The translations under genes were made by a program, and so were the position numbers. A DNA stretch of 64,000 bases from Streptomyces guryensis (GTDB lineage: Bacteria > Actinomycetota > Actinomycetes > Streptomycetales > Streptomycetaceae): NCBI RefSeq assembly GCF_021261325.1, contig NZ_JAJSBI010000002.1:496001-560000 (forward strand), read 5' to 3'. Each line of letters starts with the position of its first letter. Position 1 is the stretch's first letter. The notes under the pieces are model-generated. The model was given only the letters and a program-made list of their open reading frames with translations, was not told the origin of the DNA and did no database searches. Positions 27,891 through 42,198 of this stretch are shown here, in pieces.

Positions 27891-28391
27891 TCAGCCCACG
27901 AACTCGACGTCGGACGTCAGCCAGCGCCCGCCCCGGTACACCAGGTCGAGCTGGAGCCGGTAGGTGCGTGCCTCCCCCTGGGGCACGGCGGTGTTGGTGA
28001 CCTTGCTGTCGGCGACCACCAGGACACGGCCCGAGTGTGCGTCGGAGCGGACGATGCCGGCGTCCAGGACCTGCCCCTCGGACACGGACCTGTTCTCGGC
28101 GACGAGCTTGGTCAGCTGCGCGGTCTGCGCGGTGAACTGCTTCTTGAAGTCACCGGTGGCGCCCTTGAGGACGTCCGCGCTGTCCCGGTCGTAGTGCCGG
28201 TAGTCGAGCGAGGTGAAGTTCAGCGCGGACTGGCGGGCCGCGGCCAGGAGGTCCTGGCGCCGCTGCTCCGTCCCCTGCCGGTCGTGCAGGGCGAGGCCCA
28301 GCCAGCCGGCGACCGCGGCGGTGAGGACGGTCGCCGCGACCAGCCCCACCGTCAGGACCCTGTTCATGCCATCGGGCCGACGAGCAGCCAT
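27891..28391 (-). CDS. Mce-associated membrane protein
   Basis: A 166-residue protein with one N-terminal membrane helix (VLTVGLVAATVLTAAVAGWLGLAL) and an outer domain containing LDYRHYDRDSADVLKGATGDFKKQF, matching the next gene's YRHLDRDFARARALLTGHFREQ. ATG 28391 has AAGGAG eight bases upstream and overlaps the end of the last MCE gene by 28 bp. The pair of related small proteins at the 3' end mirrors the Mas genes of mycobacterial mce operons. Confidence 0.82.
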   Translation of the reverse strand: MAARRPDGMNRVLTVGLVAATVLTAAVAGWLGLALHDRQGTEQRRQDLLAAARQSALNFTSLDYRHYDRDSADVLKGATGDFKKQFTAQTAQLTKLVAENRSVSEGQVLDAGIVRSDAHSGRVLVVADSKVTNTAVPQGEARTYRLQLDLVYRGGRWLTSDVEFVG

Positions 28392-29635
28392 TGCCACGAC
28401 TCCTTTCCGAACACCGTCTGCTGGCCGCCCGTCGAGCCGATCTCGACGGGCCTTCCGTCCGGGCCGGTCGCGGTGCCGGTCTCCGGGTCGTACGGCGTGA
28501 TGTACGCCGCCTGGTTCGCGCCGCCGGACGTTGCGCCGGGGGCGTTCTGCGCGCCCCGCACCGACGTCTGGCCGCCTCGCGGGGCGGCGCAGTGCGCGTC
28601 GGTGTCGGCCGCACGGGGGCTGGTGTCCGAGGGGTCCCGCCACGTGGTGCCGTATCCCTTGGTGCACGGCGGCGGGTCATCGGCGTTCACCACCAGCCCG
28701 AAGTGGGTGGTGCCGTCGCCCGGGACCACCGTGTAGCTGCCCGCGACCGCCGCCGGGAAGGTGACGAGCGCCTGCTCCACGCCGGGCAGGTGCGCCAGCG
28801 TGACCCGGCCGCCGCTGATCAGGTTGGCCAGCAGGACCGACAGGCCGGGGCCGGTCGACTTCAGCAGCGAGTCGACCTGCTGCGCGGCCGGTGTCGCGTT
28901 GCCGATCACCTTGCGCAGGTCCCCGTCGCTCGCCTTCAACTGCGCGCTGAGCGCCGCCAGGTCGTGCGCGAACGACTTGATGGACGAGCCCTGGTCGGCC
29001 TGTGTCTTCAGGACCTTCCGCGAGTCCTCGATCAGGGAGATCGTCTGGGGCAGCGACGCGGACGCCGACTCCACGAGCGCGTTGCCCGAGTCCACCAGTC
29101 GGCTCAGGTCGGGGCCGGTGCCGTCGAAGGCCCTGCCCAGCTCGTCGACGGTGACCCGCAGGTCGTTCTTGCCGACCGAGTTCACCAGCCGGTCCAGGCT
29201 GAGGACCAGGTCCGTGGTCGGCAGCGGCACGCGTGTGCTGCCGCGCGGGATGGCGCTGCCGTCGAGGAGATACGGGCCGTGGGAGGTGCGCGGCTGCAGA
29301 TCGACGTACTGCTCGCCCACCGCCGAGCGGTCCGCCACCATGGCCAGGGTGTCCGCCGGGATGCGCGGCGCCCCGTCCTTGATGTCCAGGGCGACCGAGA
29401 CTCCGTCGGCGCCACTCAGCCGCAGCGCCCCGACCTTGCCCACGGGCACCCCGCGGTAGGTGACCTCCGCGCCGGGGAAGATGCCCCCGGAGTCGGCGAA
29501 GTCGGCCCGCACGGTGTAGCCGCGGCCCAGGACGTCGTCCACCAGGCCGGTGTACTCGGCGCCGACGTACGACACCCCGACCGCGGTGACGACGGCGAAG
29601 GCCAGCAGTTGGGCCTTGACCGTACGAGTGATCAC
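28364..29635 (-). CDS. MCE-family protein (MceF position)
   Basis: A 423-residue substrate-channel protein: one N-terminal helix (LLAFAVVTAVGVSYVGAEY), an MCE/MlaD beta-barrel domain (about 35-115, with GGIFPGAEVTYRGVPVGKVGAL) and a long helical region with amphipathic heptads. A variable C-terminal domain contains cysteines (CTKGYGTTW, DAHCAAPRGG). GTG start at 29635 overlaps the previous stop (GTGA). In hexameric Mce machines six such proteins form a tunnel for lipids across the cell envelope. An RGG-like turn in the tail is coincidental. Confidence 0.88.
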   Translation of the reverse strand: MITRTVKAQLLAFAVVTAVGVSYVGAEYTGLVDDVLGRGYTVRADFADSGGIFPGAEVTYRGVPVGKVGALRLSGADGVSVALDIKDGAPRIPADTLAMVADRSAVGEQYVDLQPRTSHGPYLLDGSAIPRGSTRVPLPTTDLVLSLDRLVNSVGKNDLRVTVDELGRAFDGTGPDLSRLVDSGNALVESASASLPQTISLIEDSRKVLKTQADQGSSIKSFAHDLAALSAQLKASDGDLRKVIGNATPAAQQVDSLLKSTGPGLSVLLANLISGGRVTLAHLPGVEQALVTFPAAVAGSYTVVPGDGTTHFGLVVNADDPPPCTKGYGTTWRDPSDTSPRAADTDAHCAAPRGGQTSVRGAQNAPGATSGGANQAAYITPYDPETGTATGPDGRPVEIGSTGGQQTVFGKESWQWLLVGPMA

Positions 29636-30903
29636 GGTTGGACCCCCTTCAGCATCAGCTCGGCCAGCGCGAGGTCGATGCCCTCGGGCGGCTTCGCTCC
29701 GGTGGTGTAGCTGCTCGTGCACACCGGCGGGCACAGCGGCCCGCCGCCGCCCGAGGGCGACGAGGGCACGGACGGCGACGACGGCAGGCTCGGTGTGCTC
29801 GGCAGCGGGGCCGGCGTCGGGACGCCCGGCACCTTCGGGAGGCCCGGTACGGCGGAGCTGCCGGGCGCCGGTGAACTGCCTTTGCCCTGGCTGGAGTTGC
29901 CGTCCGCGAGATTCCCGTAGAGGTCCGCCAGCTGGAGATCCGCGGTGATGTGCAGGTTGACGTAGTCGCCCTTGACGGCATCCGTGGCGTTGCGTGGGAA
30001 CGGGTAAGTTGTCAGCAGCTCGAGGGAGTTGGGCAGGTCGCTGCCCGACTTGTTCAGCTGTTGCAGGATCGGCCGCAGGTTCTTGAGGTTGGCGACCGTG
30101 TCGTCGTGCGAGGCCTCGACCACCTTGGTGCCCGCCTTGCCGAGCTTCGACAGGGCGGTGAGCATCTTCGTCAGGTTGCGCCGCTGGTCGGCCAGGACCT
30201 TCAGGGCGGGCGGCATCGTGTCGACGGCCTCGGCGATGGTCTTCTTCTCCTTGCCGAGCCGCCCCGCGAGCCGGTCGACGGCCTTGATCGCGCGGATGAT
30301 GTCCGCCTTCTGCCGGTCCAGTCCGCCGACGAACGTGTTCAGCTCCTTCAGTAGTGACCTGACCCGGTTCTCCCGGCCGTCCAGGGCCTTGTTCAGCTCC
30401 ACGGTGATCGTCTTGAGCTGGGCGACTCCACCGCCGTTGAGCAGGGCGGACAGGGCGGACAGCACCTCCTCGACCTCCGGGTTGCGGCCGCTGCGGGAGA
30501 GCGGGATGCGGTCGCCGTCGCGGAGCCGGCCCACGGGTGCCGTGCCGGTCGGGGCGGCCAGCGCCACGTACTTCTCGCCGAGCAGGCTGGTCTGCCGCAG
30601 CTCGGCGACCGCGTTCGCGGGCAGCCGCACCGAGTCGGCGACCCGCAGCCGTACCCGCGCGTGCCAGCCGTCCAGCTCCACCTTCTCCACCGCGCCGACG
30701 GTGACGTCGTTCACCTTCACCGCCGACTGCGGCACCAGGTCGAGGACGTCACGGAAGTCGACGGTGACGTGGTAGGCGTGCCCGTCGTCGGCGGCACCGC
30801 CGGGCAGCGGGACGTCGTACCAGCCGTTGAACTCACAGCCGGACAGCAGCAGCGACCCCACCGCCGCCCAGGCGAGCGTCCCGGCCTTGCGTCGTGTGCT
30901 CAT
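29632..30903 (-). CDS. MCE-family lipoprotein (MceE position)
   Basis: A 423-residue MCE protein with a lipoprotein signal (LAWAAVGSLLLSGC, lipid-modified Cys about residue 22), as in mycobacterial LprK/MceE. The MCE domain (about 40-120) is followed by a helical tunnel segment. The tail is rich in Pro/Ser (VPGVPTPAPLPSTPSLPSSP) and contains cysteines in PLCPPVC. ATG 30903 overlaps the previous stop (ATGA). The proline repeat resembles the outer tail of the sigma factor encoded at 38214-39233. Confidence 0.9.
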   Translation of the reverse strand: MSTRRKAGTLAWAAVGSLLLSGCEFNGWYDVPLPGGAADDGHAYHVTVDFRDVLDLVPQSAVKVNDVTVGAVEKVELDGWHARVRLRVADSVRLPANAVAELRQTSLLGEKYVALAAPTGTAPVGRLRDGDRIPLSRSGRNPEVEEVLSALSALLNGGGVAQLKTITVELNKALDGRENRVRSLLKELNTFVGGLDRQKADIIRAIKAVDRLAGRLGKEKKTIAEAVDTMPPALKVLADQRRNLTKMLTALSKLGKAGTKVVEASHDDTVANLKNLRPILQQLNKSGSDLPNSLELLTTYPFPRNATDAVKGDYVNLHITADLQLADLYGNLADGNSSQGKGSSPAPGSSAVPGLPKVPGVPTPAPLPSTPSLPSSPSVPSSPSGGGGPLCPPVCTSSYTTGAKPPEGIDLALAELMLKGVQP

Positions 30904-32027
30904 GCGCTCGCCCCCAGGATCCCGCCGAGCGTCCTGTCGATCGTGCCGGTCACCGCGGTGCCCTGCGTGGGAAGTTCGGGCAGTGAGTCGAAGAGTTTCT
31001 TCAGCTGCTCGCAGTCGGGGTTCTTGCCGCCCTCGTCGCCGGTCGTCCGCAGGATCGAGCACAGCAGCGAGGCCGGATCCTGCGCCTGCTGCGCGTTGTT
31101 GCGGGTGTCGAGGGTGCCGGAGGACGGGTTGTAGGCGTTGTTGAGGTTCGACAGGCCCGTGGGCGCGACCCGCAACAGCTCGTCCAGGGCGGCCCGTTGG
31201 GTGACGAGCACCTTGGTCACCTTGCTGAGGCCCTTCACGTTCGAGGTCAGCGAGTTCTTGTTCCTCTTCACGAACGCGGACACGTCGCCGAGCGCCGTCC
31301 CCAGGTTCCTGAGCGTGTCCGCGAGGTCCTGACGCTCGCCCGAGAGCTGCTGCGCCACATCGGCGAGACTGGTGTCGAAGGACCGCACGCTCTTGTCGTC
31401 GGCCGCCAGCGCCGCGGTGAACACCTGCAGGTTCCGCACCGTGCCGAACAGGTCCCTACGCCCGTCGGACAGGGTGGTGACCGCCTGCGACAGGTCCTGG
31501 ACGGTCCGGTTGAGGTTGGCGCCCTGCCCGTCGAGGTTGTCCGCGCTCACCCCGAGCAGCCGGGAGAGGGAGCCGTCCTTGTTGGCGCCCTTGGGGCCGA
31601 GCGCGTCGGCCGTGGTGTGCAGGCTGTCGAAGATCCGGTCCAGTTCCACGGGTACGGCGGTGCGGTTCTCGGGGATGACGGCACCGCTGCGCATGACCGG
31701 GCCCTTCCGGTACACCGGCAGCAGCTGTACGTAACGGTCGCTGACCACCGAGGAGTTGATGATCGCGGCCTGGGCGCCGGCGGGGACCTTGCGCCCCTCG
31801 TCGTACTCCAGCTCCACCCGCACCCGCTCGCCCTCGGGCGTGATCCTCCTGACCTCGCCGATCCGGACACCGAGGACGCGGACGTCCGAGCCGGGGTAGA
31901 TGCCGACGGTGCGCGGGAAGTACGCGGTGACGTGGACCGGCTCGGGCCGCGGCCACAGCGCATAGGTGAGGGCGGCGGCCAGGGCGAGTGCCGTGAGCAC
32001 CGCCAGGCGTCTCGTCAGGCGCTTCAC
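30900..32027 (-). CDS. MCE-family protein (MceD position)
   Basis: A 375-residue protein: basic N-terminus, membrane helix (LAVLTALALAAALTYALW), MCE domain (VHVTAYFPRTVGIYPGSDVRVLGVRIGEV), and a long helical segment. GTG 32027 has GGAGG six bases upstream and overlaps the preceding gene by 4 bp. Two C-terminal cysteines (LLCSI, PDCEQ) may form a disulfide outside the cell. Part of the six-subunit MCE tunnel. Confidence 0.9.
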   Translation of the reverse strand: MKRLTRRLAVLTALALAAALTYALWPRPEPVHVTAYFPRTVGIYPGSDVRVLGVRIGEVRRITPEGERVRVELEYDEGRKVPAGAQAAIINSSVVSDRYVQLLPVYRKGPVMRSGAVIPENRTAVPVELDRIFDSLHTTADALGPKGANKDGSLSRLLGVSADNLDGQGANLNRTVQDLSQAVTTLSDGRRDLFGTVRNLQVFTAALAADDKSVRSFDTSLADVAQQLSGERQDLADTLRNLGTALGDVSAFVKRNKNSLTSNVKGLSKVTKVLVTQRAALDELLRVAPTGLSNLNNAYNPSSGTLDTRNNAQQAQDPASLLCSILRTTGDEGGKNPDCEQLKKLFDSLPELPTQGTAVTGTIDRTLGGILGASA

Positions 32028-33184
32028 CGGGTGCCTCCCGTTCGCGGTGTCACCGGAGCGGCGACCAGGTTCTGGACGTAGGAGTCGAACCAACGGCCGT
32101 TGCCCAGGGCGTTGGTGAAGACCCGCACATACGGCGCGAGCAGCTGCACGCTGCGGTCGAGGCTTGCCTGGTTGCGTTCGAGCATCTGCACCACACGCTT
32201 CAGGCCCTGCAACGCGGGCCCGATCTCCCTGTCGTTGTCCTGGACCAGGCCGGAGAGCTCGATGCCGAGCGCGGCGGAGGTCTTCAGCAGCTTGTGGATC
32301 GCCTCGCGCCGCCTGCTGATCTCCTTGAACAGCTGGTCGCCGTCCTTGAGCAGGGCGGTGAAGTCCTTGGAGCGGTCGGCGAGTACGCCGGTCGTGCCGT
32401 TCGCGTGGTCCAGGAGTTCGCCCAGGGCCTGGTCGCGGGAGGCCACCGTGCGGGAGATCTCCGACAGGCCCTTGATGGACGCGCGCACCTCGGCGGGCGA
32501 GTCCTGGAAGGTGGCGGAGATGGTGTCCAGGGCCTTCGCGAGCCGCCCGGTGTCGACCTTCTCCGAGGTCGTGGTCAGGTCGCTGAACGCCTGCACGACG
32601 TCGTACGCCGGGACGGTGCGCCTGAGCGGGATCTCGCTGCCCGGCCGCAACTGGCCCGGCCCCCTGGGCTGCAGCGCGAGGTACTTCGCGCCGAGGATCG
32701 TCTTGACGCGGATCGAAGCGCCGGTGTCGGTGCCGAAGCCCGGACGGCCCTTGACCTCGAAGGTGACCTTGACGTGGTCGCCGACCAGGTCGACGCCCTC
32801 GACCTTGCCGACCTTCACCCCGGCGATCCGCACCTCGTCACCGGGCTTGAGTCCGCCCGCCTCCGAGAAGGCCGCACTGTAGGTGTCGCCGCCGCCGATG
32901 ATCGGCAGGCTGTCGGCGTTGAACGCGGCCACGGTCAGGAGCGCGAGGACGGTGAGACCGACGGCCCCGATGACGACGGGGTTGCGCTCGCGGAACGGAA
33001 CCAGGCGTGGCCGCCGGAGGCGTATCCGCGGCAGCCTGGGCGGCTCGATGCGCACCTTCATCAACGGTTCCGGCCTGCGCGGGCGGGGCGCGCGCCGGGG
33101 CAGCCGTGGCTTCGGCAGCTTCGGCGGGTCGATGCGGACCTTCACCAGCGGTGCCGGGCGGTTCCTGCGGGACGTGCGGGTCAT
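32024..33184 (-). CDS. MCE-family protein (MceC position) with duplicated basic N-terminal motif
   Basis: A 386-residue MCE protein. Before the membrane helix (VVIGAVGLTVLALLTVAAF, about 68-86) it has an unusual cytoplasmic extension in which a Pro/Arg motif occurs twice: PLVKVRIDPPKLPKPRL and PLMKVRIEPPRLPRIRL. The MCE domain (GGLKPGDEVRIAGVKVGKVEGV) and helical tunnel follow normally. ATG 33184 has GAGG upstream and a 4 bp overlap with the preceding gene. Confidence 0.9.
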   Translation of the reverse strand: MTRTSRRNRPAPLVKVRIDPPKLPKPRLPRRAPRPRRPEPLMKVRIEPPRLPRIRLRRPRLVPFRERNPVVIGAVGLTVLALLTVAAFNADSLPIIGGGDTYSAAFSEAGGLKPGDEVRIAGVKVGKVEGVDLVGDHVKVTFEVKGRPGFGTDTGASIRVKTILGAKYLALQPRGPGQLRPGSEIPLRRTVPAYDVVQAFSDLTTTSEKVDTGRLAKALDTISATFQDSPAEVRASIKGLSEISRTVASRDQALGELLDHANGTTGVLADRSKDFTALLKDGDQLFKEISRRREAIHKLLKTSAALGIELSGLVQDNDREIGPALQGLKRVVQMLERNQASLDRSVQLLAPYVRVFTNALGNGRWFDSYVQNLVAAPVTPRTGGTR

Positions 33185-34233
33185 GAGCCGCACCTCGCCC
33201 TCGCCACGTGCAGGTCCGGGGTGAGCGTCTGCTTCGTCTTCGGCAGCACGATCCGGCCGTCGAAGTCGCAGAGGTAGAAGTTGAACCAGGAGCCGTAGGA
33301 CGCGGTCCCCGTCAGTGCGTTGAGCTTGTTCGGCAGCCGCTGCAGGACGCCCTCCACGGTCTTCTCGTTGTCGTTCAGCGTCCCGGTGAGATCGGTCAGC
33401 CCCGCGATGTCGTCCTTCAGCGGCGGCCGTGCGTCCTTCAGCAGCCCCGAGGTGGCGTCCGTCAGATCGCCGATGTTCACCAGCGACTGCCCGATGGGCC
33501 CCCGGTCGGCGGACAGACCGGAGATCACCCGCCGCAGCTGCACCAGCAGCTCGGAGAAGCGGGTGCCGCGCTCGTCCAGCGTCTTCAGCACGGCGTTGAG
33601 GTTGTCGATCACCGAGCCGATCAGCCTGTCCCGCCCGGCCAGGGTCGTGGTGAGCGAAGCGGTGTGCGCCAGCAGGCTGTTGACCGTGCCGCCCTCGCCC
33701 TGCAGCGTCTTGATGATCTCCGTGGCGAGCTGGTTGACGTCCTGCGGGCTGAGCGCGGCGAACAGCGGCTTGAAGCCGTTCAGCAGGGCGTTCAGGTCCA
33801 GCGCGGGCTGCGTCCGCGTCAGCGGGATCGTGCCGCCGGGCTTCAGCCGGGTGCCGTCGCCCGCGCCCTCGGTGAGGGCGACGTACCGCTGCCCGACCAG
33901 GTTGCGGTAGCGGATGACGGCATGGGTGCTGGTGAGCAGCGGCCGGTCGGCGCCGACGGTGAAGGTGATCTCCGCCAGCGTACGGTCCTTGATCCGGATG
34001 CCCTGGACCTGGCCGACCCGCACTCCTGCGACCCGGATGTCGTCCCCCTTCTCCAGGCCGGTGACGTCGCTGAAGACGGCACGGTAGGTGCGGTCGGGTG
34101 TGAAGGAGAGGTTCACGATGGTGGCGGCGAGCAGGGCCGTAGCCGCGATCGTCACCAGCGCGAAGAGGCTGAACTTGATGAGGGGAGCGGCGGTCTGCCG
34201 CGCTGCCGAGGTCCTCGTACGACGCGGCCTCAT
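33181..34233 (-). CDS. MCE-family protein (MceB position)
   Basis: A 350-residue protein with a basic N-terminus, membrane helix (LIKFSLFALVTIAATALLAATIV), MCE domain (DVTGLEKGDDIRVAGVRVGQVQGI, NLVGQRYVAL) and a helical segment ending with cysteines in FYLCDFDG and ARCGS. It starts ATG 34233 with an ATGA overlap. Part of the lipid tunnel. Confidence 0.9.
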   Translation of the reverse strand: MRPRRTRTSAARQTAAPLIKFSLFALVTIAATALLAATIVNLSFTPDRTYRAVFSDVTGLEKGDDIRVAGVRVGQVQGIRIKDRTLAEITFTVGADRPLLTSTHAVIRYRNLVGQRYVALTEGAGDGTRLKPGGTIPLTRTQPALDLNALLNGFKPLFAALSPQDVNQLATEIIKTLQGEGGTVNSLLAHTASLTTTLAGRDRLIGSVIDNLNAVLKTLDERGTRFSELLVQLRRVISGLSADRGPIGQSLVNIGDLTDATSGLLKDARPPLKDDIAGLTDLTGTLNDNEKTVEGVLQRLPNKLNALTGTASYGSWFNFYLCDFDGRIVLPKTKQTLTPDLHVARARCGS

Positions 34234-35465
34234 ACGACACTCACCGCCGTCCCGCGCGCCATCGGACCGAACAGCAGCGTCGTGACCGGCGGCACCTCGT
34301 CGGCGGGCACCCCCAGCACGGGCGACACCAGCGAGCCGACGGCCCGCTGTTCGGCCCGGGTGGCGGAGACACCGAGCGGACCGGACGAACCGCCCGCTCT
34401 GGAACCGTCGTCGAGATGGACCCCGGGTGCGGGCACCGAAGGATGCGGAAGATCCCGGCAGTCGGGCCCGGACCGGTCGGCGTAACGCGGCTCCTCGCCG
34501 GGCCGGTACGCCCCCTGCTGCCGTACGACCTCCAGCGTGATGTGCATCTTGCCGCCCCGGAACGCCTGCTCGGAGGCCTGCTCCTCGTGGACGAGCCCGG
34601 CGAGGAGACAGGGGTACTCGGGGGAGTAGCGGGCGAAGAGTTCGAGTGTCGGGCGGGAGACCTGCCCCAGGGTGATCAACCGGTCGCCGTTCGCGTCGAG
34701 GAAGTCCTGAGCCGTGCCGGCGGCGCCGGCCGTCGTGGTGAGGGCCGAGGCGAGCCGGTCCCGCTCCGCGACCAGCGTGCGGCTGGTGGTCACGGTGTTG
34801 CGCAGGACCTCCATCAGGTCCGGCGCCGCGTCGCCGTACACCTGGGCGACGTCGGCCAGCCGGGCGAAGTCCTCGGTGAGGGAGGGCAGATGAGGATTGA
34901 GGCGGTGCAGATAGTCCTCCACGCGCGTGAGGTTGTCGCCGATCCGGTCGCCACGGCCTTCGAGGGCGGTGGCGAACGCGGAGAGCGTGGCGTTGAGCTT
35001 TCCGGGCTGCACGGTCCGCAGCAGCGGCAGCAGGTCGTTCATCACCTGCTGCAGCTCGATGCCGACGCGGGTGCGGTCCTGGGCGATCACGTCCCCGGCG
35101 CGGATGGGCCGGGCCGAGGAGCGCGCGGGAGCGACCAGGTCGACGTACTTCTCGCCGAACAGCGTCTTGGGCAGCAGCCGGGCCCGTACGTCGGACGGGA
35201 TGTCGGCGGCGTACTCCGGCTTGAGCGCGATGTCGAGCGTCGCCTTGTGCCCGTCGGCGTGCACCGAGCGCACCTCGCCGACCAGCAGGCCGCGCAGCTT
35301 GACGTCGGCGCGCGGGTCGAGCTGGTTGCCGAGGCTGTCGGCCTCCAGCCTGATCCGCACGGCCGGGGTGAACGCCTGCCGGTACACGGCGACGGACAAC
35401 GACAGCAGCAGGGCGAGCACGGCGAGGAACACCACGCCGTACAACCGCAGTCTCCACACCCTCAT
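34230..35465 (-). CDS. MCE-family protein (MceA position)
   Basis: A 411-residue MCE protein, first of the six. It has an N-terminal helix (YGVVFLAVLALLLSLSVAVY), MCE domain (LDPRADVKLRGLLVGEVRSV ... LPKTLFGEKYVDLV), helical segment and an extended polar C-terminal tail. I give ATG 35465; a GTG at 35474 would overlap the permease stop by 4 bp like all other joints in this operon and would add three residues. Confidence 0.88.
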   Translation of the reverse strand: MRVWRLRLYGVVFLAVLALLLSLSVAVYRQAFTPAVRIRLEADSLGNQLDPRADVKLRGLLVGEVRSVHADGHKATLDIALKPEYAADIPSDVRARLLPKTLFGEKYVDLVAPARSSARPIRAGDVIAQDRTRVGIELQQVMNDLLPLLRTVQPGKLNATLSAFATALEGRGDRIGDNLTRVEDYLHRLNPHLPSLTEDFARLADVAQVYGDAAPDLMEVLRNTVTTSRTLVAERDRLASALTTTAGAAGTAQDFLDANGDRLITLGQVSRPTLELFARYSPEYPCLLAGLVHEEQASEQAFRGGKMHITLEVVRQQGAYRPGEEPRYADRSGPDCRDLPHPSVPAPGVHLDDGSRAGGSSGPLGVSATRAEQRAVGSLVSPVLGVPADEVPPVTTLLFGPMARGTAVSVV

Positions 35466-35470
35466 ACGGT

Positions 35471-36274
35471 TCACCCCGCAATCCGCACGGTCGTGTTGGC
35501 GCCCCAGATGGCCAACGACAGGAAGAAGTCGAGGACGTTGATCGCGACGATCGAGGTCCGCACGGCACGGCCCACCGCGACGCCGACCCCTGCTGGGCCG
35601 CCGCTCGCGTAGTAGCCGTAGAAGCAGTGCACGAGGATGATCAGGACGGCGAAGACCAGCACCTTCCCGAAGGACCACAGCACGTCGACCGGCGGCAGAT
35701 ACTGCTGGAAGTAGTGGTCGTAGGTGCCGGCCGACTGCCCGTAGTAGCCGGTGGTGATCGTGCGGGCGGCGAAGTAGGAGGACAGCAGCCCGATCACGTA
35801 CAGCGGGATCACGGCCACGAACCCGGCGATCATCCGCGTGGTCACCAGGAACGGCAGCGAGGGGACGCCCATGACCTCCAGGGCGTCGGTCTCCTCGCTG
35901 ATCCGCATCGCGCCGAGCTGGGCGGTGAAGCCCGCCCCGACGGTCGCGGACAGCGCGAGTCCGGCGACCAGCGGGGCGATCTCCCGGGTGTTGAAGTACG
36001 CCGAGAGGAACGCCACGAAGTTGGAGGTGCCGAGCTGGTTGAGCGCCGCGTATCCCTGGAGCCCCACCTCGGTGCCGGTGAAGAAGGACAGGAAGGCGAT
36101 CACCCCGACCGTGCCGCCCACGACGGCGAGGGCGCCGCGGCCGAAGCTCACCTCGGCGAGCAGCCGCAGGATCTCCTTCTTGTACCGGCGCACGGTTCGG
36201 CCCGTCCAGGCCAACGACCTTCCATAGAAGGAGAGTTGACGGCCGAGCTCTTCCAGGCTTCTCAGGACTGCCAT
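35471..36274 (-). CDS. YrbE/MlaE-type permease subunit B of the Mce transporter
   Basis: A 267-residue inner-membrane permease with the MlaE plan: an N-terminal amphipathic helix, then about five membrane helices. It includes the conserved coupling segment ARITAQLGAMRISEETDALEVMG-like (here AGFTAQLGAMRISEETDALEVMG in residues about 120-142). It pairs with YrbEA and the ATPase to power lipid movement. It begins 9 bp after the YrbEA stop. Confidence 0.93.
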   Translation of the reverse strand: MAVLRSLEELGRQLSFYGRSLAWTGRTVRRYKKEILRLLAEVSFGRGALAVVGGTVGVIAFLSFFTGTEVGLQGYAALNQLGTSNFVAFLSAYFNTREIAPLVAGLALSATVGAGFTAQLGAMRISEETDALEVMGVPSLPFLVTTRMIAGFVAVIPLYVIGLLSSYFAARTITTGYYGQSAGTYDHYFQQYLPPVDVLWSFGKVLVFAVLIILVHCFYGYYASGGPAGVGVAVGRAVRTSIVAINVLDFFLSLAIWGANTTVRIAG

Positions 36275-36283
36275 GTCTGTGCC

Positions 36284-37054
36284 TCAGCCCCTCTGCGGGA
36301 CGACCTGGAAATACACCGCGGTCATCACGAAGTTCGTCACGAACAGCAACATGAAGGTGATCACCACCGACTGGTTCACGGCGTCACCCACACCCTTCGG
36401 ACCGCCCTTCGCGGTCAGTCCCTTGTACGAGGCGACGATCGCCGCGATCGCCCCGAAGACCAGCGCCTTGATCTCGGCCGCCCACAGGTCGGAGAGCTGG
36501 GCGAGGGTGGTGAAGGAGGCGAGGTAGGCACCCGGGGTGCCGTTCTGCAGGACGACGTTGAAGAAGTAGCCGCCGGCGACGCCGACCACCGACACCAGCC
36601 CGTTGAGCAGCACCGCCACCACCATGGACGCCAGCACCCGTGGCACGACCAGCCGGTGGATGGGATCGATGCCGAGGACCTGCATCGCGTCGATCTCCTC
36701 GCGGATCTTCCGGGCCCCGAGGTCCGCGCAGATGGCGGTGCCGCCGGCGCCCGCGATCAGCAGAGCGGTGACGATCGGCGAGGCCTCGCGCAGCACCGCC
36801 AGGACCGAGGCGGCTCCGGAGAAGGACTGGGCGCCGAGCTGCCTGGTGAGGCTGCCGATCTGCAGCGCGATGACGGCCCCGAAGGGGATGGACACGAGCG
36901 CGGTCGGCAGGATGGTGACACTGGCGACGAACCAGGCCTGCTGGATGAACTCCCTTGCCTGGAAGGGCCGTCGGGGCATCGTCCGGACCACGTCCAGCGC
37001 CATCGCGAACAGGTTCCCCGACTGCCGCAGCGCTCCGGTCGGCGACAGTCTCAT
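36284..37054 (-). CDS. YrbE/MlaE-type permease subunit A of the Mce transporter
   Basis: A 256-residue MlaE-family permease. The conserved ICADLGARKIREEIDAMQVLG loop contacts the ATPase, and several membrane helices follow. Its ATG at 37054 overlaps the ATPase gene stop by 4 bp, showing the ATPase and permease genes are translated together. Confidence 0.93.
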   Translation of the reverse strand: MRLSPTGALRQSGNLFAMALDVVRTMPRRPFQAREFIQQAWFVASVTILPTALVSIPFGAVIALQIGSLTRQLGAQSFSGAASVLAVLREASPIVTALLIAGAGGTAICADLGARKIREEIDAMQVLGIDPIHRLVVPRVLASMVVAVLLNGLVSVVGVAGGYFFNVVLQNGTPGAYLASFTTLAQLSDLWAAEIKALVFGAIAAIVASYKGLTAKGGPKGVGDAVNQSVVITFMLLFVTNFVMTAVYFQVVPQRG

Positions 37055-37998
37055 ACGTCCGCCACCGCCTTCCGGCGCCGCAGTTCGGCCTCCCGCCGGG
37101 CGATCGCCTCCCAGCGTGGTGGCCGGGTGATGCCCGGCCCCGGCAGCAGGCGGGGAGTCAGAGCCCGGCTGCCGGGTGCCTGTGCTGTCTCGCTGCCGCT
37201 GAGTGCGGCCAGCTCCTGCTCGACCTGGGCGGCGTCCTTCTCCTCCGCCATGCCGATCGGACCCTGCATCCGCCCGTTCAGGAACTGCCTGACGACCGGC
37301 TCGTCACTGGTCAGCAGCTCCTCCCGCGGCCCGAACATGACCAGCTCGCGGCGGAACAGCAGCCCGATGTTGTCCGGTACCTGGCGGGCGGAGGCGATGT
37401 CGTGGGTGACGATCAGGAAGGTCGCGTCGATCTGGGCGTTGAGGTCGACGATGAGCTGGTTGAGATAGGCGACGCGGACGGGATCGAGACCGGAGTCCGG
37501 CTCGTCGAAGAGAATGATCTCGGGATCGAGGACCAGCGCCCGGGCCAGCCCCGCCCGCTTGCGCATGCCGCCGGATATCTCCCCGGGCAGCTTCGCCTCC
37601 GAGCCGATGAGCCCGACCATCTCCATCTTCTCCAGCACGATGCGCCGGATCTCGCTCTCGGACTTACGGGTGTGCTCGCGCAGCGGGAACGCGATGTTGT
37701 CGTAGAGGTTCATGGAACCGAACAGCGCGCCGTCCTGGAACAGCACACCGAACAGCTTCCGCACCTCGTACAACTCGTGCTCGCGCAGCCGGGTGATGTC
37801 CCGCCCCGCGATCTTCACGCTGCCCCGGTCCGGCTTCAGCAGCCCGACGAGCGTCTTGAGGAACACCGACTTGCCGGTGCCGGAGGGGCCGAGCATGACG
37901 GACACCTCCCCGGCGGGCAGCGTCAGCGAGACGTCCTGCCAGATGACCTGGTGACCGAAGGACTTGGTCAGCCCTTCCACACAGATCTCGACACCCAT
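37051..37998 (-). CDS. mkl: Mce transporter ATPase (Mkl/MlaF family)
   Basis: A 315-residue ABC ATPase: Walker A GPSGTGKS, Q-loop LFQDGALFGSM, signature ISGGMRKRAGLARAL, Walker B IILFDEPDSGLDP and the H-loop VTHD. A C-terminal extension of about 60 residues follows, as in Mkl. ATG 37998 has GAGG eight bases upstream. It is the first gene of a ten-gene minus-strand operon whose products import lipid or sterol-like molecules. Linking ATPase and permeases in one operon is usual in Streptomyces, whereas mycobacteria encode Mkl elsewhere. Confidence 0.93.
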   Translation of the reverse strand: MGVEICVEGLTKSFGHQVIWQDVSLTLPAGEVSVMLGPSGTGKSVFLKTLVGLLKPDRGSVKIAGRDITRLREHELYEVRKLFGVLFQDGALFGSMNLYDNIAFPLREHTRKSESEIRRIVLEKMEMVGLIGSEAKLPGEISGGMRKRAGLARALVLDPEIILFDEPDSGLDPVRVAYLNQLIVDLNAQIDATFLIVTHDIASARQVPDNIGLLFRRELVMFGPREELLTSDEPVVRQFLNGRMQGPIGMAEEKDAAQVEQELAALSGSETAQAPGSRALTPRLLPGPGITRPPRWEAIARREAELRRRKAVADV

Positions 37999-38034
37999 CC
38001 GGTCCACCTCTCGGCCCGTGGAGCAGCTCCGACA

Positions 38035-38057
38035 TCTGCTCTACGGGGAGGGGACGG
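38035..38057 (-). promoter_or_regulatory. leader motif of the mce operon shared with the transglycosylase gene
   Basis: On the minus strand, CCGTCCCCTCCCCGTAGAGC with AGA following lies 37 bp before the mkl start. A close copy occurs 32 bp before the lytic transglycosylase start (40399-40420). It may be a promoter element or transcript start read by a common sigma factor. Confidence 0.45.
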
Positions 38058-38154
38058 GGGTCCGTCGCGGGGGAGGGGATTTTTTTCTCGTTGTTCGTCC
38101 GCGGCGCCGTGGTGGCTGGTCCCGCCGCGCGGCGGAGCCGCATATGGGCACACC

Positions 38155-38177
38155 CCCGCGCCCCTTCAGGGCGCGGG
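38155..38177. terminator. hairpin terminator after the sigma factor gene
   Basis: Arms CCCGCGCCC (38155-38163) and GGGCGCGGG (38169-38177) around a 5-base loop, 37 bp beyond the sigma gene stop. Confidence 0.7.
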
Positions 38178-38213
38178 CCGCACCGTAGCGGAATTCGTCC
38201 GGCCTGCTTGGTT

Positions 38214-39233
38214 CTACGGCAGGCCGGTCGGAGTCGGTGCCGGGAGCGAGACCGGTGCGGACGGCGTGGCGGGGGCGTCCGGGAGGCCGGGCAGCGTCGT
38301 AGCCGGCGTGGGGACGTCCGGCAGGGCGGAGAGGGCGGGAGTGCTCGGCAGGCTCGGGACGTCCGGGACCTCGGGGACGGCCGGGACCGGTGACAGTGAC
38401 GCCTTCGGGAGGGGCGGGACCGACAGGGGGAGCAGGGAGCCGGCGTGGGTGCCGGTCGACGGTGCCGACGCGGTCGACAGTCCGCGGGCCTTCGCGGTGG
38501 GCGTGTGGCCGGCGCTTTCGGGGCGTACGGTCTCGGCGGCCGTGCCGGGGGCGGGGGACGCGGCGGGCGGGGCAGTCGTGTCCGGGTGGCCGCCGTCCAG
38601 GGCGTACGGCAGGACGAATCCCGCCACCGCCAGCGTGGCCGCCGTCGACGCGGCCGCCACCGCCTGCGCCTTGCCGCCCGCCCGCAGCCGGCCCCGCCCG
38701 AACAGGAAGAGCGCGAACCCGAGCGTCCCTGCGAGCGAGGCCCGAAGCGTCCGCCGGGCGCGGGCCAGCAGCGACTCGACGGTCCGGTAGCTGAGCCCCA
38801 TCCGCACGGCGACCTGGCTCACGTCCAGATCCTCGGACTTCAGCCGCAGTGCCTCCGCCTGCCGCGCGGGCAGCTCACCGCTGCGCACGGCCAGCCACTT
38901 CGCCTCCGCCCGGTCGCACACGGCCTCCTCCACCGGCACCGGTCCGGGCGCGATCAGCGTCGGGCTGGTGCGGACCTCGGCCTCACGGTTGACCTGCCGG
39001 TACCGGTCGACGCACAACCGCATGGTCACCGTCGTGAGCCACGCGCCGAGCCGCTCGTCGTCCAGGTCCGGCCGCTCGGCCGCGCGCAGCATCGCCTCGT
39101 GCACCGCGTCCTCGGCGTCCTCCTGGCTCATCGACCTGCGCCGGGCCACCCTGAGCAACTGCTCACGGTGGCTCCACATGCGCTGCCAACGCTCGTCGGC
39201 GGCTCTTGCCTCCGCAGGCATCTCCGTCGCCAT
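38214..39233 (-). CDS. ECF sigma factor with membrane anchor and proline-rich outer tail
   Basis: A 339-residue protein. Residues about 20-85 are sigma region 2 (QEDAEDAVHEAMLRAAE, LTTVTMRLCVDRYRQ) and about 115-165 region 4 (LPARQAEALRLKSEDLDVSQVAVRMG with SYRTVESLLARARR). Most ECF factors end here. This one continues with a hydrophobic stretch (190-211) able to span the membrane, and an Ala/Pro/Ser/Thr tail of about 125 residues rich in VPxVP-type repeats. No separate anti-sigma gene is visible, so activity may be controlled by release from the membrane. ATG 39233. It sits between the mce operon and a cell-wall hydrolase gene, all on the minus strand. Confidence 0.87.
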   Translation of the reverse strand: MATEMPAEARAADERWQRMWSHREQLLRVARRRSMSQEDAEDAVHEAMLRAAERPDLDDERLGAWLTTVTMRLCVDRYRQVNREAEVRTSPTLIAPGPVPVEEAVCDRAEAKWLAVRSGELPARQAEALRLKSEDLDVSQVAVRMGLSYRTVESLLARARRTLRASLAGTLGFALFLFGRGRLRAGGKAQAVAAASTAATLAVAGFVLPYALDGGHPDTTAPPAASPAPGTAAETVRPESAGHTPTAKARGLSTASAPSTGTHAGSLLPLSVPPLPKASLSPVPAVPEVPDVPSLPSTPALSALPDVPTPATTLPGLPDAPATPSAPVSLPAPTPTGLP

Positions 39234-39350
39234 GAGGGCCCCTTTGCGCTCACCCGCCGGCCCGGTCCCGGCCCGGCGGATGGCGACATTACCGCTCGGT
39301 AGCCGCGGTTGTGGAGGGGGCAGCGGCCATCGAGTCCGCGCCGTTACTGG

Positions 39351-40367
39351 TCAGCCACCGGCCAGCGGCAAGCCGCTGGGCAGCACGTTGTCGGTCGGCA
39401 GGTCGATGGAGGGGGTGGGCATCGGGGCGATGGGTTGCGGCGAAGTGCCGGATGCCGGACGGGAGTTGGAGGGCGCCGGTGAGGCGGGGACGGACGGGGT
39501 GGTGCTCGGCCGAGGGGACGGCTTCGGTGTCGGTTTCGGGGCCGGTGCCGGTTTCGTGCGCGAGGGCCCGCGATGCGCCGAGGAACGCGGCGACGGCCCC
39601 GCCGGGCCGTCCGGCACCACCCTGTGCCCCTCCAGGAAGTACGCGTACCAGGCCCTCACCGTGCGCAGGTAGGCCTCCGAGTGGTTGTAGCCGAGGATGG
39701 CCCGGTCCAGCCCCGCCGGCTCGGACAGATCCCCTCCGGCCGCGCACAGATACCGTCCGGCGGCGAGCGCCGCGTCGTACACGTTGCCCGGGTCGGCCCG
39801 CCCGTCGCCGTTGCCGTCCGCTCCCCAGCGGGCCCAGGTGGACGGAATGAACTGCATCGGGCCCACCGCACGGTCGTACACCGCGTCCCCGTCGTACGCG
39901 CCGCCGTCCGTGTCCCGTACGACGGCGAAGGCACCCCCGTCCAGACGCGGACCCAGGATGGGCGTCACGGTCGTGCCGTCCGCGGTCACCCGGCCGCCGT
40001 CCGCCTGCCCCGACTCCACCTGCCCGATCGCGGCCAGCAGTTGCCAGCGCAGCCCGCAGCCGGGCGCCGTCCGCGCGAGCTCCGCCTCGGCACGGCGGTA
40101 GGCGGCGAAGACGGTCGATGGCACCGCGCCGCCCACGACCGCCGGTGCCCCGCCCCCGTGGCCCCCGTGCCTCCGCGCGAGCGGGGGAAGCTCCGTGCGG
40201 TACGGGGTGTCGCCGGACACGCTCGGCCCCTGCTCCGCGGGCCGCGCCACCGGCGCGTTTGCCCTCGCCGGGGACGCCCCCGGTGCCTGCGACGCGGTCA
40301 GCGCCGCCATCGCCGCCGCTGCCACCGCCGTACCCCTGACCCGTCCGACGACCCTGCGCCCTGTCAC
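39351..40367 (-). CDS. secreted lytic transglycosylase (SLT/MltB-like)
   Basis: A 338-residue exported protein with a signal peptide (about 1-36). A lysozyme-like domain follows (about 80-250) with the catalytic Glu in LLAAIGQVESG and the family's GPMQFIPSTWARWGADGNGDG motif. It cleaves peptidoglycan glycan strands. The C-terminal 90 residues form a Pro/Lys-rich tail (PAPAPKPTPKPSPRPS) ending LPSGLPLAGG. GTG 40367 has AGGGGA upstream. Divergent from polX; 117 bp upstream of the sigma gene on the same strand. Confidence 0.9.
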   Translation of the reverse strand: MTGRRVVGRVRGTAVAAAAMAALTASQAPGASPARANAPVARPAEQGPSVSGDTPYRTELPPLARRHGGHGGGAPAVVGGAVPSTVFAAYRRAEAELARTAPGCGLRWQLLAAIGQVESGQADGGRVTADGTTVTPILGPRLDGGAFAVVRDTDGGAYDGDAVYDRAVGPMQFIPSTWARWGADGNGDGRADPGNVYDAALAAGRYLCAAGGDLSEPAGLDRAILGYNHSEAYLRTVRAWYAYFLEGHRVVPDGPAGPSPRSSAHRGPSRTKPAPAPKPTPKPSPRPSTTPSVPASPAPSNSRPASGTSPQPIAPMPTPSIDLPTDNVLPSGLPLAGG

Positions 40368-40398
40368 CTTGCGGTCCCCTCCCTGCGAGCTGCTGTCG

Positions 40399-40420
40399 TC
40401 TGCTCTACGGGGGAGGACGG
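40399..40420 (-). promoter_or_regulatory. leader motif shared with the mce operon
   Basis: On the minus strand CCGTCCTCCCCCGTAGAGCA with GA following lies 32 bp before the transglycosylase start. The core TCCCC(C)GTAGAGCAGA is common to the copy before mkl. Confidence 0.45.
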
Positions 40421-40452
40421 CACGTCCGTCGCCGCGTGCCTACCCTGAAGGT

Positions 40453-42198
40453 GTGGCCCGGTCCAACGACGAGGTCGCCGCGCTGCTCCAGGAGTACGCG
40501 GACCTGATCTCGATCACCGGAGGAGACGCGTTCAAGGCGCGCGTCCACGAAAAGGCTGCCCGGTCGGTCGGCGGCCACCACGCCGACGTCTCCACGCTCG
40601 ACCTCAAGGGCCTCCAGCAGATCCCGAACGTCGGGAAGTCGATCGCCCGGAAGATCCTCGAATACTTCGACAACGGCAGCGTGTCCGCCGTTGAGGAACT
40701 GCGCGCGAAAATCCCGGCCGGGGTCCGCCGGCTGACCGCCATCCCCACGCTCGGCCCGAAGAAGGCACTGACGGTCTACGAGGAGCTGGGCATCTCCTCG
40801 GTCGAGGAACTGGCCGACGCCATCCACGAGGAGCGGCTGCGCGATCTGAAGGGCTTCGGTCCGAAGACGGAGGAGAACATCCTCCACGGCATCTCGCTCC
40901 TGCGGTCCTCCGGGGGACGCGTCCGGATCGATGTGGCCATGGGCCTCGCCGACGACATCGTCGCCGAGCTGTCCGCCCTGCCGGGCTGCCTGCGGTGCGC
41001 CTACGCGGGCTCACTGCGCCGGATGCGCGAGACGATCGGTGACATCGACATCCTCGTCGCGGCGAGGAAACCGGCACCGGTCATGCGGGCGTTCACCGAG
41101 CTGCCGTACGTCACCGAGGTGATCGGCACGGGCGATAAGAAGACGTCCGTGCGGACCGGCAAGGGCCTCAACGTCGACCTGCGCGTCGTACCGCCGGACT
41201 CCTGGGGTGCGGCCCTGCAGTACTTCACCGGCTCCAAGGCGCACAACATCCGCACCCGCGAACTGGCCGTGCACCAGAAGCTGAAGCTCTCCGAGTACGG
41301 GCTCTTCGACGTCGAGAGCGGCAAGAAGATCGTTTCCGAGACCGAGGAGGAGGTGTACGCCCGGCTGGGGCTGCCCTGGATCCCGCCGACGTTGCGCGAG
41401 GACCGGGGGGAGATCGAGGACGGGCTGCACGGCGAACTCCCCGACCTGGTGACGGAGACGGACCTGCGCGGCGATCTGCACTCCCACACCGACCTCACCG
41501 ACGGACTGGCCCCGCTGGAGGAGATGGCGCAGGCCGCCGCCGCACGGGGCTGGGCGTACTACGCGATCACGGACCACGGCCCGGACATGGCCATGCAGCG
41601 CATGACCGACGAGCGGATCCTGGCCCAGCGCGAGCGGCTGCGCGAACTCGACGGTACGTACGCCACCCGGGGCAGGCGCGGCGGTCTGCGGCTGCTGCAC
41701 GGCGTCGAGCTGAACATCGGGCCGGACGGCGAGGTGGACTGGCCCGAGGAGTTCCTGGCCGGCTTCGACCTCTGCGTGGCTTCTGTGCACTCGCACTTCA
41801 ACCAGGGGCGCGAGGCCCTGACCCGGCGGATCGTACGGGCATGCGAGAACCCGTACGTCAACATCATCGGCCACCCCACCACCCGCATCATCGGCAAGCG
41901 GCCCGGCATCGACGCCGACCTCGACGCGGTCTTCGCCGCCTGCGCCCGCACCGGCACGGCCCTGGAGATCAACGCCCACCCGGACCGACTCGACCTGCGC
42001 GACGAGGACATCCTGCGGGCCGGGCGGCACGGCGTGAGGTTCGCCGTCGACAGCGACGCGCACGCCGTCCCCCACCTGGCCAACATGCGTTACGGCATCG
42101 GCACCGCCCAGCGCGGCCGGCTCACCGGGGACGACGTGATCAACACCTGGCCTGAGCGCCGGCTGCGGAGCTTCCTGCGGAAGGGACAGCAGGCGTAG
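40453..42198 (+). CDS. polX: family-X DNA polymerase with PHP 3'-5' exonuclease domain
   Basis: A 581-residue repair polymerase. Helix-hairpin-helix elements lie at about 50-130 (LQQIPNVGKSIARKI, TLGPKKALTVYEELG). The nucleotidyltransferase site GSLRRMRETIGDIDILVA follows (about 190-210). The C-terminal PHP domain has its metal ligands in DLHSHTDLTDG, AITDHG, HGVELNIG, SVHSHF, GHPTTR and VDSDAH. Such enzymes fill short gaps in base-excision repair. I use GTG 40453; no ribosome site is convincing, and the longer open frame up to 40195 antiparallels the transglycosylase gene. Confidence 0.95.
   Translation: MARSNDEVAALLQEYADLISITGGDAFKARVHEKAARSVGGHHADVSTLDLKGLQQIPNVGKSIARKILEYFDNGSVSAVEELRAKIPAGVRRLTAIPTLGPKKALTVYEELGISSVEELADAIHEERLRDLKGFGPKTEENILHGISLLRSSGGRVRIDVAMGLADDIVAELSALPGCLRCAYAGSLRRMRETIGDIDILVAARKPAPVMRAFTELPYVTEVIGTGDKKTSVRTGKGLNVDLRVVPPDSWGAALQYFTGSKAHNIRTRELAVHQKLKLSEYGLFDVESGKKIVSETEEEVYARLGLPWIPPTLREDRGEIEDGLHGELPDLVTETDLRGDLHSHTDLTDGLAPLEEMAQAAAARGWAYYAITDHGPDMAMQRMTDERILAQRERLRELDGTYATRGRRGGLRLLHGVELNIGPDGEVDWPEEFLAGFDLCVASVHSHFNQGREALTRRIVRACENPYVNIIGHPTTRIIGKRPGIDADLDAVFAACARTGTALEINAHPDRLDLRDEDILRAGRHGVRFAVDSDAHAVPHLANMRYGIGTAQRGRLTGDDVINTWPERRLRSFLRKGQQA

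Follow-up and report, generated by a model that had tools for sequence, protein, structure and literature searches.

A 64,000-nucleotide stretch of the Streptomyces guryensis genome (contig NZ_JAJSBI010000002.1, positions 496,001 to 560,000; "the window" below always means this whole stretch) contains a gene for an extracytoplasmic function (ECF) sigma factor, which is located between slt, the gene for a lytic-transglycosylase-like protein, and mkl, the first gene of an mce operon. The explanation that best accounts for the observations as a whole, and in which we have considerable confidence, is that of a self-anchored ECF sigma factor with a tiny dedicated regulon and a proposed release step. 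The sigma factor would direct transcription from one promoter class, GCGACGGAC-N14-CGTAGAGCAG, and its regulon in this genome would consist of two promoters, that of slt (which probably serves the sigma gene as well, giving positive feedback) and that of mkl (mce lipid import); some relatives would add a secreted BNR-repeat protein. Judging from sequence comparison, direct control of slt, probably together with the sigma gene itself, and of the mce operon is very likely. For a Streptomyces mce operon this predicts both the exact promoter and its dedicated regulator, and it would link mce transport with a wall hydrolase and with a secreted BNR protein in a compact and testable envelope-response switch, predicted for Streptomyces and some related genera, that here involves two promoters only.

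The predicted promoter element shared by slt and mkl

Exact copies of the 14-mer CCCCGTAGAGCAGA are found at 38035-38048 and 40399-40412, both on the minus strand, 36 nt ahead of the ATG of mkl and 31 nt ahead of the GTG of slt. The preliminary description of the window had proposed a motif common to the two flanking units, 32-37 bp upstream of mkl and of the transglycosylase gene; the distances and the exact match at both places stand, but the motif represents no more than the -10 half of a two-part element, whose upstream half, CGACGGAC, lies exactly 14 nt ahead of CGTAGAGC at both sites. The features concerned are the following.

39351-40367, minus strand: slt, lytic-transglycosylase-like protein (PF13406 SLT_2; GTG start)
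38214-39233, minus strand: ECF sigma gene, 339 amino acids, with its own predicted transmembrane helix and outer tail (Pfam Sigma70_r2 and Sigma70_r4_2; relatives at 80 further loci)
37051-37998, minus strand: mkl (mceG-like) ATPase, gene 1 of the mce operon (ABC_tran; ATG at 37998)
40402-40431, minus strand: predicted slt promoter (CGACGGAC at 40424-40431, N14, CGTAGAGC at 40402-40409)
38038-38067, minus strand: predicted mkl/mce promoter (CGACGGAC at 38060-38067, N14, CGTAGAGC at 38038-38045)
38080-38086, minus strand: A-tract upstream of the mkl -35 half, UP-element-like (AAAAAA, conserved in relatives)

These two copies of CCCCGTAGAGCAGA are the only exact ones in the 10.5-Mb genome. When the same genome was searched with the bipartite pattern CGACGGAC-N14-CGTAGAGCAG, two copies were obtained at 0-1 mismatch, and they are the slt and mkl promoters; extra sites at 2-3 mismatches were rejected, because allowing up to 3 mismatches gives 46 matches against 32 in the control. 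The form usual in related loci is GCGACGGAC...CGTAGAGCAG. A purine-rich sequence resembling a ribosome-binding site is located between the element and the start codon, and a search for sigma-70-type promoters in 37900-40600 found none. The mkl promoter and leader also contain an inverted repeat, GAGCAG...CTGCTC (window 38021-38041), which is largely conserved in relatives and overlaps the mkl -10 half and the likely transcript start.

Conservation was assessed in 81 loci, comprising the window and the best 80 of 97 relatives from the sigma scan, and the 80 relatives that carry a name are, without exception, Streptomyces by their titles. The mkl site is present with 0 mismatches, and mkl lies on the strand of the sigma gene, in every one of the 81 loci. 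The flanking position of slt is less general than had been described: it is adjacent in 57 loci, i.e. in 57 of the 74 that are not cut by a contig end. Among these 57 the slt site is exact in 46 and has one mismatch in seven; L251 has an exact slt site further upstream, L214 contains the two blocks separated by a spacer of 15, L203 retains only the -10 half since the contig end falls inside the slt promoter, and the contig of L186 ends before that promoter. The element is therefore present within one base ahead of slt in 55 of 55 fully visible loci; a motif that is not conserved in relatives would have refuted the proposal, and the outcome is clearly the opposite. No adjacent slt was found in the other 24 loci; in seven of them (L202, L204, L205, L211, L221, L238 and L253) the sigma gene is less than 900 nt from a contig end, so slt would be invisible. 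Over the mkl loci the -35 half carries 1.85 and the -10 half 1.93 bits per column, against about 0.3 in the region 31-70 nt upstream of the -35 half; these values are unselected, whereas those for slt were computed only from sites having no more than one mismatch, which biases them upwards. The AAAAAA tract, about 15-20 nt ahead of CGACGGAC, is conserved across the 81 mkl loci and is also present at mkl sites in four other genera.

The slt gene is the probable upstream gene of an slt-sigma operon. The distance from slt to the sigma start is 117 nt in the window and has a median of 63 nt in relatives (56 loci, range -106 to 537), and no terminator-like site was found in 37900-40600 of the window; because of this short median gap and the lack of such a site, slt and the sigma gene are likely to be co-transcribed where they are adjacent.

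The distribution of the element was followed in 392 congeneric genomes with the pattern CGACGGAM-N14-CGTAGAGC, using the pattern read backwards as the control: 146 matches were obtained in 79 genomes, compared with 3 control matches. A loose spacer, N13-18, was rejected for regulon searches, as it matches 298 of the 392 genomes and mostly returns background. A close sigma, defined by an E value below 1e-80, is encoded in 74 of the 79 motif genomes (11/11, 11/15 and 52/53 by batch) and in none of the 51 motif-less genomes tested (50 and G206). In a further draw of 121 genomes the motif was present in nine (15 listed matches against 4 control matches), five of which belong to four genera other than Streptomyces; in the regions retrieved from them, all five encode a sigma relative (54-69%).

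The element is tied to one type of mce operon. Among 61 genomes examined for mkl, the 11 that have the sigma are also the ones with a close mkl (89-100%), each time with the exact site (11/11). A second mce type, with an mkl about 70% identical, is represented by 13 mkl genes, in 13 of these 61 genomes (L116-L128), and none of the 13 has a site under 5 mismatches within 300 nt; the same holds in G006, a sigma-bearing genome with both mkl types, where the second-type mkl lacks the site. Since second-type mkl genes lack it, the element belongs to this mce type and not to mce operons generally.

There are also targets that have moved. In G214, slt (recognised by translation) lies at 602 kb on a contig 1.1 Mb long, sigma and mkl are located on a different contig, and the site is present at slt as well as at mkl; a further slt-like copy in G326 likewise carries a site; and in G398, which belongs to another genus, mkl is located about 3.6 kb from sigma on the opposite strand and keeps an exact site. 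The fact that the site stays on moved targets argues, as far as sequences can tell, against simple hitch-hiking. The mkl of G411 was rejected as an unlinked target: it is near the start of one contig and the contig of sigma begins at the sigma 3' end, so that the usual gene order, interrupted by a contig break, is equally likely.

A third target is suggested by a gene that is preceded by an exact site in eight congeners and codes for a secreted protein with BNR repeats, about 604 residues long; the gene is located about 11 kb after the mkl site in two of them and elsewhere in the rest. Of 75 genomes searched, 50 have the motif and 25 do not; the protein is found in six of the former and in none of the latter, and all six genes have the site. 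The promoter is exact at all ten BNR loci seen (L129-L136, L289 and L291); the gene follows the mce operon in G464 and is divergent from and beside sigma in G411, a member of another genus (L289). The S. guryensis genome contains no gene for this protein at E 1e-60. In the sigma-bearing genome G089 (L142 3017 (+)), a site with exact spacing lies ahead of a gene for a 101-residue membrane protein, a possible target.

Two paralogous membrane-anchored sigmas, L043 (in G030) and L044 (in G009), are 48% identical to the protein of the window. Just ahead of the next gene they have the variant CGACGCAA or CGACACAA-N14-CGTAGAGC, and that gene codes for a secreted-looking protein, with a PepSY domain in L044. 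The paralogs thus seem, from their sequences, to be the same device with an altered -35 half and a different target.

The sigma factor and its membrane anchor

The preliminary description had recognised an ECF sigma with its own membrane helix, a proline-rich tail and no visible anti-sigma gene, and all three points are borne out by Pfam and by Kyte-Doolittle hydropathy. The parts of the protein are as follows.

38985-39173, minus strand: sigma region 2, residues 21-83 (PF04542, E 5.1e-12)
38745-38876, minus strand: sigma region 4, residues 120-163 (PF08281, E 1.6e-9)
38607-38663, minus strand: predicted transmembrane helix, residues ~191-209, AVAAASTAATLAVAGFVLP (Kyte-Doolittle mean 1.75 over 19 residues)
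38217-38600, minus strand: proline-rich tail, residues 212-339, predicted to be outside and variable across relatives

Regions 2 and 4 are above the Pfam cut-off and a region-3 hit is absent, as is characteristic of the ECF class; the score for sigma70-ECF, TIGR02937, is 63.4 bits with a cut-off of 42.9, and the solved structures matching by sequence are those of other ECF sigmas (SigJ, SigE and SigL). Beyond residue 167 there are no Pfam hits at E 0.01; at this threshold neither a zinc-finger or anti-sigma domain anywhere in the protein nor a carbohydrate-binding module beyond residue 167 was found. The only cysteines, C74 and C106, are both within the sigma part. No anti-sigma gene is located next to the sigma gene, its neighbours slt and mkl having no anti-sigma domain by Pfam.

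The helix starts about 25 residues after region 4. The best 19-residue Kyte-Doolittle mean is at least 1.6 in 79 of 80 proteins, with a minimum of 1.49. In the 80 full-length proteins the mean majority identity is 0.96 for regions 2 and 4 (region 4 being computed over residues 120-165), 0.87 for the helix and 0.52 for the tail. L246, from Streptomyces ipomoeae, was left out of these statistics, because its sigma frame (4021 onward) stops after 33 residues as deposited; its slt and mkl promoter sites are nevertheless intact, and the truncation is either a sequencing error or a pseudogene. Tail lengths range from 117 to 230 residues and proline contents from 11 to 26% in the 80 proteins. Conservation of the tail, suggested earlier as a check, is thus not observed for the tail as a whole, but an LPLSVPxLP-like patch at about residues 268-276 is a conserved exception, in which P276 is invariant (25/25).

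Because the Arg-rich segment GRGRLRAGGK precedes the helix, the topology suggested is N-inside and C-outside, with the tail on the outer side. A hairpin formed via a shorter hydrophobic stretch, residues 167-180, is possible and would be contrary to the positive-inside rule. The AlphaFold model, built from 25 sequences (mean pLDDT 58.5), has helices at residues 149-179 and 190-205 and a coil tail.

The tail had also been likened to the proline repeat of the MceE lipoprotein. The two share an xxP period, but homology was rejected: none of 1000 composition shuffles reach the score, but 100 of 1000 shuffles that keep the period of three do, and the likeness is no evidence for a link. The slt tail gave nothing in this respect, 158 of 1000 shuffles reaching the score. 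Of the envelope-sensing module proposed on these grounds, the anchored sigma tied to mce and slt by one conserved promoter stands, but the MceE likeness does not.

The closest kin of the sigma are ECF52, ECF53, ECF48 and IutY. As described in passages of one study (PMC5826349), SCO4117, the ECF52 member of S. coelicolor, has a C-terminal transmembrane segment and a proline-rich region, and positive autoregulation has been proposed for it; the sigma described here likewise combines a transmembrane region with a proline-rich extension. According to the same passages SCO4117 also contains a zinc-finger domain and a carbohydrate-binding module and acts pleiotropically, and CSGYN-17bp-SRHA has been proposed as its motif at 29 promoters, whereas the present sigma is without zinc finger and carbohydrate module, has a different promoter, and its regulon, as judged by sites, is limited to two promoters. 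ECF48 and ECF53 are actinobacterial groups with membrane-bound C-terminal extensions, and ECF48, ECF52 and ECF53 are expected to work by proteolytic release in the relevant parts of another paper (PMC8999054); compared by description, the ECF48 and ECF53 extensions hold a zinc-finger (anti-sigma-like) domain, whereas in the present sigma the helix is present and such a domain was not found. The characterised case is IutY (ECF243) of P. putida, which the sections concerned of PMC8999054 present as a siderophore-responsive sigma/anti-sigma fusion that becomes an active sigma on truncation. Like IutY, the present sigma is a single protein with a membrane-bound C-terminal part; unlike IutY, with its anti-sigma part, its sigma regions are followed just by a short linker, a single helix and a tail that is variable and free of domain hits. 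Sigma factors with membrane extensions are therefore known, and what differs here is the lack of a zinc finger or carbohydrate module and the dedicated regulon. Among the matches listed in the open-access literature, as titles and abstract openings, there was no report of this sigma or promoter. Such a minimal membrane sigma, consisting of sigma regions, short linker, one helix and tail, would be a simple case in which to study how an ECF sigma can be kept at the membrane in the absence of an anti-sigma domain.

Proposed recognition and release, and alternatives

In the proposed mechanism, regions 2 and 4 would be cytoplasmic, one helix would hold the protein in the membrane and the proline-rich tail would be outside. 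Activation would most likely come about when the tail or the membrane segment is altered, probably through regulated proteolysis, so that the sigma is set free for RNA polymerase. Release by proteolysis, which is borrowed by analogy from the kin above, is put forward tentatively, at slightly less than an even chance. In its fuller form, to which we give somewhat less credence still, the sigma would be a one-protein device whose tail monitors the condition of the wall or of surface lipid, and its release would activate the import of lipids, a wall-cutting enzyme and also, since slt and sigma would be co-transcribed, the sigma itself, with the BNR protein in some lineages. No protease partner or cleavage site for the sigma was identified, which weighs against this part of the explanation, and the poor AlphaFold model is too weak to weigh.

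The most serious competitor, a possibility to be kept in mind even if we rather doubt it, is that the sigma drives the promoters while anchor and tail merely place or stabilise it, its activity being set by synthesis and degradation without release by cleavage. Such a role would suit the low conservation of the outer tail relative to the sigma regions (0.52 against 0.96) and the fact that the sigma's neighbours are slt and mkl rather than a protease or sensor gene, and co-transcription with slt would permit control through feedback alone. On the other hand, the helix is strongly conserved (at least 1.6 in 79 of 80), and relatives with membrane extensions are, in those same parts of PMC8999054, described as activated by proteolysis or expected to be.

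Direct recognition of the promoters by the sigma, which the self-anchored sigma with its dedicated regulon presupposes, is the simplest interpretation because of the adjacency of the genes, the ECF-like two-block geometry, the co-occurrence, the movement of the site with its targets and the variant that accompanies the paralogs; on these sequence comparisons we regard it as highly probable. It is improbable that the element belongs to a different regulator, whether a second ECF sigma or a response regulator (MtrA, for example), with this sigma being no more than a neighbour. Candidates would not be lacking, since S. coelicolor has 65 sigma factors, including ECF sigmas, according to a passage of PMC5826349, and the expression of the S. 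coelicolor mce operon is reduced without MtrA, as stated in part of PMC5845573; moreover, five motif genomes have no sigma match. Against this, a close sigma separates motif genomes from motif-less ones (74/79 and 0/51) and a relative accompanies the motif in 5/5 genomes of other genera, two blocks at a fixed spacing suit a sigma better than an operator, and the element recurs, in a variant form, with the paralogous sigmas.

Several further observations count against direct recognition or reduce the weight of the evidence for it. Co-occurrence alone is weak, because sigma, mkl and site are for the most part passed on together, as a single block, among related species, and the 81 mkl sites collapse to 35 distinct 30-mers, so that they are not independent. 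Three genomes have a weaker sigma relative (44-48%, E 1e-57 to 1e-60) and no motif. The five motif genomes (of 79) without a sigma match are G099, G251, G379, G272 and G370. The assembly of G099 has 1020 contigs, and since its two sites sit 551 and 93 bases from contig starts, its sigma may fall in an assembly gap. In G251 and G379 both flanking sets of neighbours are present at the site (77-92% identical) and the region has no sigma, mkl or yrbEA match; an exact slt promoter is kept in each (L277 7093 (+) in G251 and L276 4604 (-) in G379), followed by an slt remnant of 47 residues in G251 and none in G379, and by sequence both have the appearance of deletion scars. For G272 and G370 no such explanation is at hand. 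A site in G370 (L278 6728 (-)) is exact and has an mkl-like leader, with mkl and sigma not nearby, and is a possible relic. In G398 a second exact site (L286 6190 (-)) lies just after sigma with no gene recognised behind it; this site occupies the usual place of mkl, which in G398 has its own site on the other strand. Finally, in loci without adjacent slt no site other than that of mkl was found at up to 2 mismatches, with the exception of L185, which has an exact site 5.4 kb upstream of the mkl site; apart from L185, these loci have no site ahead of sigma, and therefore feedback on sigma is not universal.

It is very improbable that the short motif acts in the leader RNA or in translation instead of being part of a promoter. 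Its position 31-36 nt ahead of start codons and the conservation of the mkl leader after it (1.49 bits per column, with 1.57 in the spacer, both also counting against the main explanation) would agree with such a role, but what is conserved is a pair of blocks at a fixed distance, preceded at mkl by an A-tract, as expected of promoter DNA, and the ribosome-binding-like sequence sits between motif and start. That the repeat reflects chance or a recent local duplication can be dismissed, for although two matches at up to 2 mismatches within the 64-kb window are unremarkable (18 of 100 shuffles reach them), there are just two copies in the genome and the conservation of both sites across species and genera has already refuted it.

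Genes surrounding the sigma locus

The other genes of the neighbourhood are listed here.

36284-37054, minus strand: yrbEA (MlaE permease; PF02405, E 8.4e-70)
35471-36274, minus strand: second YrbE permease gene, assigned by position and weakly similar to yrbEA
27891-35568, minus strand: remaining mce operon, mce and mce-associated genes, taken from the open reading frame list and assigned by position except for MceE
29632-31062, minus strand: MceE lipoprotein (MlaD and Mce4_CUP1 hits)
40453-42198, plus strand: DNA polymerase X gene (polX), divergent from slt

The operon is assigned to the mce class by ABC_tran, MlaE and MlaD/Mce4_CUP1 hits across the three proteins scanned. The top NCBIfam match of mkl is MlaF, with a score under the MlaF cut-off, and its open reading frame as called extends to a GTG at 38007. 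At the place equivalent to the second YrbE gene, yrbEA matches relatives at about 30%. In the Streptomyces mce6 operon (SCO2422/SAV5902 type), mkl is upstream of the first yrbE gene, as it is here; the mce6 passages of that paper (PMC1810536) mention no adjacent sigma or shared promoter.

The polX start is 21 nt from the slt -35 half on the opposite strand (window 40431-40453), so the slt and polX promoters may crowd one another, and TACCCT 6 nt ahead of the polX GTG suggests that the polX transcript may be leaderless. The slt-sigma-mce block as a whole appears to be embedded in a purine/glyoxylate gene cluster, as far as gene names can be read from translations: it is flanked in the window by uricase-side genes at 45.6-48.0 kb and by hydroxypyruvate-isomerase-like and semialdehyde-reductase-like genes at 25.1-27.0 kb.

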